Shown here in pieces: positions 37,334 to 39,279 of a DNA stretch of 49,313 nt. The position numbers were made by a program, and so were the translations under genes. Source of the stretch: Bacteroidota bacterium (GTDB lineage: Bacteria > Bacteroidota > Ignavibacteria > Palsa-1295). Location: positions 1 through 49,313 of the forward strand of contig JAUZOQ010000013.1 of NCBI GenBank assembly GCA_030706385.1, given 5' to 3'. How positions within the stretch are numbered: the first letter of the stretch is position 1; the number at the start of each line of letters is the position of its first letter. The notes under the pieces were generated by a model, which did not search any database, was not told where the DNA came from, and saw only the letters and a program-made list of their open reading frames with translations.

Positions 37334-37474
37334 GATGTTTAATGAATTAAGTCTTCAAGTGCAAAAGACACCGCATAACACGAAATTTAGCAAAGCGGCT
37401 CCCGGAATTCGGGTTATTTTGCCATGCGAAAAAACTTTTTCCCACCCTTCTGTTCCCCGATCTGTCGAAAATAT

Positions 37475-37508
37475 GAAAACCCTGAACCTCGGAAGGCTCA
37501 GGGTTTTC
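37475..37508 (-). terminator. intrinsic terminator-like hairpin, copy 1
   Basis: An 11 bp perfect stem GAAAACCCTGA / TCAGGGTTTTC, with three further pairs (CCT/AGG) around a CGGA loop. On the minus strand it is followed by ATATTTTC, and on the plus strand by AATTAGTTTG, so direction rests mainly on its place at the end of the minus-strand module. It lies about 140 nt upstream of the secD start codon. Confidence 0.6.
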
Positions 37509-37509
37509 A

Positions 37510-37580
37510 ATTAGTTTGCCTTATCAACATACCGTTCTTGTCTAATTAAGAACGGATTCTTGTGAGCGGTGACGAAATTC
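37510..37580 (-). repeat. conserved RNA-like module, copy 1
   Basis: Shares with copy 2 an identical 20 nt block ATTAGTTTGCCTTATCAACA (37510-37529) and an identical 12 nt block CTTGTGAGCGGT (37559-37570), then a near-identical GAAATT flank. Between the blocks lies a hairpin CCGTTCTT/AAGAACGG that differs in sequence from the one in copy 2 but pairs equally well. Given as plus-strand sequence; read on the minus strand the order is block, hairpin, block, terminator. Confidence 0.75.
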
Positions 37581-37891
37581 AATTACCTATAGAGCAAGTC
37601 AGAACTCAGATCAATAGGACGATGCACTATTCTGATATTCCTCTTCCCTTAACATGATCTCATGCGTCTCATACATGACAAGGATCATTGAAAAATTAAC
37701 TACTTAATTGTGGTGAATCTCAAATCAAAACTAATGATTACGAGCACCTCCAAATCGGATTGTGCTCAAGAGATACATCCTAATCTGTGGGGGAAAATGC
37801 TTAAGTAGCCTAATGGGGTATACTTAAGATTCTCCGTGGCAACTTCTGCTAATTAACCGCGGCGACGATAAAGCATTTGTAACTAGCTGTA

Positions 37892-37925
37892 CAAATATAC
37901 GACGGAATCGCGAAAATGGTACCAA
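37892..37925 (-). promoter_or_regulatory. Bacteroidota-type promoter candidate for RNA 1
   Basis: On the minus strand, TTG (37923-37925), 23 nt, then TATATTTG (37892-37899). The -7 part matches TAnnTTTG exactly. The spacer is slightly longer than the usual 19-21 nt. Confidence 0.35.
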
Positions 37926-38019
37926 TTATTTTACAAAAAAAAGAGTAGGGATAACCGATTGAATCATAACAATATATGTGATATAGAACCGCCGGAAATC
38001 TACAAGCCGGTTGATTAAT

Positions 38020-38051
38020 AAAAAACTCCCCACTTCCTTAAAAGCAGGGAG
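38020..38051 (-). terminator. intrinsic terminator, copy 2
   Basis: A 10 bp stem CTCCCTGCTT / AAGTGGGGAG (two G-U pairs) with a 6 nt loop, followed on the minus strand by six T residues. This is a proper rho-independent terminator and fixes the minus-strand direction of the module. Confidence 0.75.
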
Positions 38052-38053
38052 CC

Positions 38054-38117
38054 ATTAGTTTGCCTTATCAACAAGCCGTCTTAAAGGAAACGGCACCTTG
38101 TGAGCGGTTGAGAAATT
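38054..38117 (-). repeat. conserved RNA-like module, copy 2
   Basis: The second copy: the 20 nt block at 38054-38073, a hairpin GCCGT/ACGGC (38075-38094), the 12 nt block at 38097-38108, and the GAAATT flank. It is directly followed by the terminator at 38020-38051. Sequence upstream on the minus strand does not visibly match copy 1, so only this 3' module is shared. Confidence 0.75.
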
Positions 38118-38438
38118 TTTACAAGATTCTTTAGGGTTGACATGCAACTAATTGAAATACAAGTAGTTTCGCAAAAAAATCCCTAGGGAATGTACCTCTT
38201 TTCAGCCGATTCTTACTTGAGCGCAACAATTCTCGTGTAAATCCCTCGATGTTGACCAAATTGGGCAATACCTAATAATACGCAAATCTTACAAATACAG
38301 ATTCCTTGGGACAGATCTGGCCCAGAGCGCCTCACTAGCAAAGTGGGAATCAGTCCAAGGCCCGTTCAACAGTGGAGAGAGTTTATTAGAACATGGATTC
38401 GATATCAATGCGCAAGTAAGATTTGACATGAATTGAGG

Positions 38439-38470
38439 TTGCAATGGAGGGTGATAATTTCGTATTTTTG
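38439..38470 (+). promoter_or_regulatory. Bacteroidota-type promoter for a plus-strand RNA
   Basis: TTG (38439-38441), 21 nt spacer, TATTTTTG (38463-38470), an exact match to TTG-N21-TAnnTTTG. Transcription would start near 38477. Confidence 0.5.
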
Positions 38471-38476
38471 TAAAAG

Positions 38477-38600
38477 TTATGCAGCCTTAGGGTTTTATTT
38501 TGATTGTCCCTGCCACGGGATGCAGCATATTCTAATCTAACGGTTCTGATTCGACAAAGGCTAGTATATACAGAAGGACGAGATTTTCTCGTCCTTTTTT
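38477..38600 (+). ncRNA. candidate small RNA, plus strand
   Basis: A unit of about 125 nt between a promoter match and a strong plus-strand terminator, with no open reading frame of note. AGCCTT (38483-38488) can pair with AAGGCT (38557-38562) to close a branched fold holding a TCCC/GGGA hairpin. There is no plus-strand gene for over 10 kb upstream that this terminator could serve. The identity is unknown. Confidence 0.45.
38574..38600 (+). terminator. strong intrinsic terminator
   Basis: A perfect 10 bp stem AAGGACGAGA / TCTCGTCCTT with a TTT loop, running into six T on the plus strand. On the minus strand it sits directly after the RraA-family stop codon but has only a poor T-run there, so plus-strand use is favoured; use by both strands is possible. 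Confidence 0.8.
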
Positions 38601-38601
38601 G

Positions 38602-39279
38602 TTAGAAGACTTTGAACTCACCAAAAAGCTCCTGGGCAGTTTTGCCAGCCTGCAATCCGCGTTCTGTTTTCTGCTCGCCTTCAACTGAATGGCGAAGCTC
38701 TGCGATGATCTTTTGAGAATGTTCTGAAGGGATAATAAGTACTCCGTTCGCATCGCCAAATACAATATCTCCGGGCTTTACATCAACACCTGCAATCCTA
38801 ATTCCAACGCCGAACTCGATCATCGATCCTCTTCTGCGAATGTCCTTAACACACCGATACTGGCCGAATACAGGAAATCCAAGCGTATCGATTTGTTCTA
38901 TGTCTCGGACCCCTCCACTGACCACTGCTCCTCGAGCACCCCTTCTCTTTGCCCTGGTTGACATCAATCCGCCCCAGAGTGCAGCGTCAATATCATGGTC
39001 TGCAGTAACAAGAACGATTGAATTCTCCGGAATTGAATCAACCATTCTCAGGATAGTATCAATCTCCACGTATTCAGTGGTAGCGACGACTTTGCAGGGA
39101 TAGGCGTAACCCGCGACCTTGAGATGAGAATTAGGAATGATCGCCTGAATGCTTCTATCAAGGACATTGCCTGGTATCCCAAGTCGATCCATAGCGTCAC
39201 TAACTAGGGGAGTAAATAATGTTTCGAGGAATTTCAGGTCTTCTAACATGTGAAGTGAGTTACCACGAGAATGAATCAT
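38602..39279 (-). CDS. RraA-family aldolase/decarboxylase-like protein
   Basis: A 225-residue RraA-type protein from the ATG at 39279, chosen because it overlaps the stop of the upstream gene by 4 nt (ATGA); an internal ATG at 39249 is possible. Family core: VSDAMDRLG, LWGGLMSTRAKRRGARGAVVSGGVRDI (the GG...RD metal/pyruvate site) and FGDANGVLIIP. Family members are 4-hydroxy-4-methyl-2-oxoglutarate aldolases / oxaloacetate decarboxylases that release pyruvate, or the RNase E inhibitor RraA. Placed after kduD and an IolB-like gene, a pyruvate-releasing sugar-acid aldolase is the better guess. Confidence 0.8.
   Translation of the reverse strand: MIHSRGNSLHMLEDLKFLETLFTPLVSDAMDRLGIPGNVLDRSIQAIIPNSHLKVAGYAYPCKVVATTEYVEIDTILRMVDSIPENSIVLVTADHDIDAALWGGLMSTRAKRRGARGAVVSGGVRDIEQIDTLGFPVFGQYRCVKDIRRRGSMIEFGVGIRIAGVDVKPGDIVFGDANGVLIIPSEHSQKIIAELRHSVEGEQKTERGLQAGKTAQELFGEFKVF

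Follow-up and report, generated by a model that had tools for sequence, protein, structure and literature searches.

A lineage-specific multicopy RNA module with a variable hairpin, a nearly invariant linker and an intrinsic terminator: a candidate small RNA family near secD in the Ignavibacteria

Small RNAs derived from the 3' untranslated regions of mRNAs and equipped with intrinsic terminators represent a general class. In the literature consulted, post-transcriptional control in the Bacteroidota has been described mainly for Bacteroides; there, the multicopy FopS sRNAs, repressors of SusC-like transporters, are bound by the RRM protein RbpB (PMC11697453). Chlorobi-1 (RF01696; PMC2864571) is a candidate RNA restricted to a lineage within the Bacteroidota/Chlorobiota branch. 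The window analyzed here, a whole stretch of 49,313 nt from an Ignavibacteria genome (G000), contains two copies, w1 and w2, of a module of about 105 nt of RNA, composed of UCUCACCG-CUCAC, a variable hairpin, a nearly invariant linker (UUGAUAAGGCAAACUAAU) and an intrinsic terminator (Table 1). We favor the interpretation, to which we assign a probability of roughly 0.55, that w1 and w2 belong to a lineage-specific, multicopy family of sRNAs and 3'-terminal modules acting via the linker.

Table 1. Module copies of the window and associated elements; positions are those of the window unless a locus is named.
Feature	Position	Strand	Evidence
w1, module copy (terminator of class B) at the 3' end of a predicted RNA gene without an ORF	37465..37584	-	CM match 37467-37580(-), 90.8 bits; repeats
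w1 variable hairpin, arms 37532-37539 / 37548-37555 (8 bp)	37532..37555	-	sequence; beats dinucleotide shuffles in folding, p 0.008
w1 nearly invariant linker UGUUGAUAAGGCAAACUAAU	37510..37529	-	identical between w1 and w2, and in the G001 pair and the two copies on C140
w1 class B terminator hairpin UGAAAACCCUG..CAGGGUUUUCA (3' end of w1), arms 37474-37489/37494-37509	37474..37509	-	inverted repeat, 94% complementary
Putative Bacteroidota-type promoter of the w1 RNA, TTGG-N-TATATTTG	37892..37925	-	present at 4/4 class B loci; G000/G001 conserved island
GCCACGG leader motif, 3' of the w1 RNA promoter	37835..37841	-	also in class B leaders of G001, G002, G006
Further GCCACGG sites	38511..38517 (+); L110 leaders; L042 184; L165 1492
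w2, module copy with class A terminator	38015..38120	-	CM match 38015-38118(-), 103.1 bits; 102-nt island conserved with G001 g1a
w2 variable hairpin, arms 38075-38081 / 38088-38094	38075..38094	-	sequence; fold vs. shuffles p 0.026
w2 nearly invariant linker	38054..38073	-	repeat comparison and pattern search
w2 class A terminator hairpin GGCUCCC..GGGGAGU and six U	38020..38053	-	sequence, RNA fold

Both window copies have the minus-strand order UUUCUC-ACCG-CUCAC (slightly altered in places), then the hairpin, UGUUGAUAAGGCAAACUAAU and the terminator. The original prediction described two blocks shared by the copies, identical and equally spaced: the identity was confirmed for both the 20-nt ATTAGTTTGCCTTATCAACA and the 12-nt CTTGTGAGCGGT, while the equal spacing was not, the gap between the blocks differing by 6 nt because the loop lengths differ (start-to-start distances between w1 and w2 of 544 and 538). 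Its further observations, that the hairpins differ in sequence and nonetheless pair, and that a terminator-like hairpin follows each copy on the minus strand, held on inspection: CCGTTCTT/AAGAACGG and GCCGT/ACGGC both form, and the 3' end of w2, UGGCUCCC..GGGGAGUUUUUU, carries a run of six T (38020-38025) which, read as a U-run, fixes the direction and thus identifies the minus strand as the sense strand of this copy.

The segment from CUCAC to AUAAGG folds into a hairpin in 11 of 11 copies, and in nine of them its stability exceeded that of dinucleotide shuffles (p < 0.03), the combined test on five divergent copies giving p 7.5e-7; the hairpins of the near-identical G002 copies g2a and g2b were no better than their own shuffles. 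Pair counts in a plain MAFFT alignment did not rise above shuffles since stems of differing register were misaligned, and for this reason folding was tested copy by copy and no formal covariation is claimed. Two terminator classes (A and B), unrelated in sequence, have the same fold, with both sides of the stem changed. The linker is the best-conserved part of the module, its flanks diverge, and in most predicted folds it is mostly unpaired. Complements of linker 15-mers, with up to two mismatches, occurred at control level, in a search that short seeds would escape, and gave no target that could be named.

The observation of two copies is genuine and beyond chance. In the 3.5-Mb genome there are exactly four sites of the 18-mer TTGATAAGGCAAACTAAT, every one of them within the module and with a terminator after it (reversed control: 0), and the two further copies, c1 and c2, are again paired, on contig C140. 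In total, 11 full copies were found in five of the 13 genomes of the family: four in G000, a pair in G001 (same genus), a pair plus one near secD in G002, one near secD in G006 and one in G005. The tandem layout is common and not obligatory, with single copies in G006 and G005 and, apart from one doubtful remnant, at the second G002 locus. Pattern and model searches returned zero copies in genera g3 (seven genomes) and g4 (one genome), and a scan of 391 genomes of the same class gave no convincing match beyond the family; the weak covariance-model matches in other genera that were inspected (L212-L216, L051) turned out to be ordinary terminators or chance. When about 85,000 species genomes were scanned for the exact pattern, only two relatives (Ignavibacteriae and Bacteroidetes MAGs) and one Vibrio matched, the latter by chance.

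The covariance-model search of relatives that had been suggested together with the prediction recovered copies at E-values of 1e-16 to 1e-22, which cover sequences used in training, the independent evidence being the 18-mer pattern search and the G005 copy, detected at E 0.026 by a model built without it. This copy (L134, contig C180, 1532-1618, minus strand) retains UUUUCUCAUCGCUCAC and GAUAAGGCAAACUA around a wholly different 8-bp stem (UGAUGGUG/CACCAUCA), has no U-run terminator and is located inside an element bearing an integrase-like gene. A diverged module remnant (AAAAGGCAAGTTACTG) was also observed in G002 (L043, 9443-9542, plus strand); its hairpin loop is shared with a nearby full copy, from which it is separated by extra genes, and recombination might be involved. 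No Rfam family matched the module region at gathering thresholds, and relaxed E-values gave weak chance matches only, in agreement with the expectation of an unlisted family. Likewise, the proposed minus-strand RNA family with a common 3' domain of hairpin, linker and terminator found support in the additional copies of related genomes, whose hairpins are altered and still pair. On these sequence comparisons, the module appears to be a genuine, unlisted, lineage-specific RNA family, ordinary in kind, whose existence we consider well supported and whose function is putative.

Bacteroidota promoters follow the consensus TTGG, about 20-23 nt, TATATTTG or TATCTTTG. Sequences resembling it are infrequent, with 46 on the two strands of 615 kb, and one lies upstream of each of the four class B loci (w1 and its counterparts in G001, G006 and G002), 209-367 nt before the linker; that of w1 is about 370 nt upstream of the motif. 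No ORF is common to the promoter-to-module intervals of these loci, the longest ATG-ORF at w1 encoding 25 aa, and in G002 and G006 a tRNA-Pro gene precedes the promoter. Comparison of G000 with G001 revealed conserved intergenic islands at matching positions. One of 102 nt (83%) is the w2 module, one of 29 nt (86%) is the promoter, and one of 197 nt (83%) comprises the w1 module together with a block upstream of secD; the spacer is unconserved. secD has a conserved upstream block of its own. The hallmarks of a predicted sRNA gene, namely a predicted promoter of its own, a terminator, intergenic position and lack of a shared ORF, are all present at w1, which, given its own conserved promoter, resembles an independent ORF-less RNA gene. 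Read in this way, the class B conservation pattern is the footprint of a putative RNA gene distinct from its neighbors, whose 3' end is conserved. For w2 a clear promoter was not found, and w2 and its G001 counterpart g1a are probably ORF-less RNA genes too. A candidate second small RNA gene, pointing away from w2, was noticed at 38439-38605 on the plus strand, with a promoter TTGCAATGG..TATTTTTG, the motif CCCTGCCACGGGATGCA and, at around 38574-38600, a terminator GAAGGACGAGATTTTCTCGTCCTTTTTT; its 17-nt motif is also found in one C140 leader.

Other members of the family are associated with genes for predicted secreted or surface proteins. On contig C140 the module bounds a cluster of predicted secreted proteins (L110, 8441-19443), several of which share a repeated N-terminal motif of the type LRGGxxxLSNGTNTITL, and at least one of which ends in a K1-lyase C-terminal domain. 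The sequence GCCACGG (often CCCTGCCACGGG) was seen in four genomes, in sense orientation and shortly 3' of Bacteroidota-type promoters, both at surface-protein genes and at module RNAs. No enrichment of GCCACGG after TTTG was detected genome-wide; the association is found mainly at promoter-like sites near module elements and surface-protein genes, and is weak when compared with permuted 6-mers. It is conceivable, if rather improbable, that in these Hfq-less hosts the module serves a dual use, as a domain common to stand-alone sRNAs and to the mRNAs of a surface-protein regulon with GCCACGG leaders, which would compete for one RRM protein or target.

The module could be a 3'-end element only, i.e., an elaborate mRNA terminator or stability module without action in trans, its ORF-less copies being decayed operons. 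In line with this, c1, c2, g2a and a half-copy of G001 (G001:C228, consisting of linker and terminator after a surface-type gene) lie 30-190 nt 3' of the stop codons of predicted secreted or surface-protein genes, several with their own promoters, and a terminator is attached to all full chromosomal copies of G000, G001, G002 and G006. However, at the class B locus four genomes from two genera have retained the promoter and the module but no ORF, the conservation of the linker far exceeds the needs of termination, and the G005 copy lacks the U-run terminator, so that we regard this explanation as possible but on the unlikely side. A different suggestion of the original prediction, a tandem attenuator for secDF, and equally a riboswitch in that role, draw on the location of w1, which shares its strand with secD and precedes it by 130 nt, an arrangement kept in G000, G001 and G006, and on the aptamer-like appearance of conserved single strands around a variable hairpin. 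Nonetheless, the RNA has its own promoter far upstream, the G002 copy is 6.3 kb from secD with other genes intervening, c1 is followed by a convergent gene, and the other copies are not upstream of a clearly co-transcribed gene, being followed by no gene or by one with its own promoter; moreover, the secD genes of the nine other genomes of the family have no such upstream element. Since a 5'-leader location is thus not found in all genomes, secDF control was rejected by position and appears extremely unlikely.

Instead of an RNA, a mobile repeat, either a MITE or a recombination site, might also account for a multicopy, often paired sequence with one copy in an integrase-bearing element and a diverged remnant beside extra genes in G002. 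Against it, neither terminal inverted repeats nor a target-site duplication were seen when the flanks of the copies were inspected by eye, every full chromosomal copy in the four main genomes is closed by a terminator in the correct orientation, and the position at secD is retained in synteny in three genomes; the exact pattern is absent from 2.9 million viral contigs and phage records yielded nothing convincing. The lack of an RVT_1 reverse transcriptase in G000 speaks against the mobile repeat and led us to reject a retron or DGR RNA as well. Equally, the class B RNA could form one large folded ncRNA of 260-420 nt, whose 5' end pairs with the linker: the 5' ends of w1, g1b and g6a can do so (duplex p 0.036, 0.089, and 0.054), but those of g2c (p 0.49) and g1a (p 0.20) gave no such indication, the stability of the 5' part does not clearly exceed that of shuffles (z -1.7 to +1.1), and this part is unconserved within the genus. 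The 5'-3' closing helix, not significant overall, was discarded. Both the mobile repeat and the large ncRNA are in our opinion very unlikely.

Under the preferred reading of a family of sRNAs and 3'-terminal modules acting via the linker, some members (w1 and its orthologues near secD) would be ORF-less RNA genes, while others would form the 3' ends of surface-protein mRNAs, from which an RNA of about 105 nt could be released. From the sequence we infer transcription and processing, with sizes of about 105 nt for the processed RNA and 260-420 nt for the primary one, as well as the existence of targets and of a protein partner. The terminator would define and protect the 3' end and the hairpin would present the linker, which, perhaps together with the CUCAC strand, may constitute a conserved contact surface. 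Such a contact could serve as a seed that base-pairs with mRNAs and/or as the site where an RRM protein binds in place of the absent Hfq: Hfq was not detected in G000, G001, G002, and G006, each of which encodes two to three RRM proteins, the two of G000 at C75:27640 and C115:19217. The module provides a precise sequence handle to search for the protein partner, and its family can be considered a solid candidate for an RNA family and not yet a demonstrated system.

Among the described RNAs, Chlorobi-1, with which a comparison had been suggested, resembles the module as a lineage-restricted candidate RNA from the same branch, and kinship was dismissed, as RF01696 had no match anywhere in the genome, nor in the 1.26-kb region with E relaxed to 10. 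With 3'UTR-derived sRNAs the module shares, at some loci, the position at mRNA 3' ends and the terminator at the end; it differs in that ORF-less units with promoters of their own also carry it, in genomes without Hfq, its processing being a prediction. A comparable organization is offered by FopS and RbpB of Bacteroides thetaiotaomicron (PMC11697453), where paralogous sRNAs are likewise multicopy in a member of the Bacteroidota, have intergenic and 3'UTR-derived members, and combine a conserved single-stranded block with a terminator in a host encoding RRM proteins; FopS has a phage-borne relative as the module has a copy in an integrase element (G005). The sequences are different, however, and the conserved block is located 3' of the variable hairpin in the module and in a 5' single-stranded stretch in FopS, the module family being a prediction from sequence. 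No FopS match was obtained among Rfam 15 families (window at gathering thresholds, region at E up to 10), a result to be read with the inclusion of FopS in that Rfam copy unconfirmed and the R1 seed sequence not directly compared. Lacking a FopS sequence match, the module would at most work like FopS and is not filed as a member. The presence in an uncultured lineage of another multicopy sRNA family, laid out similarly and apparently unrelated, would suggest the organization typified by FopS to be general.
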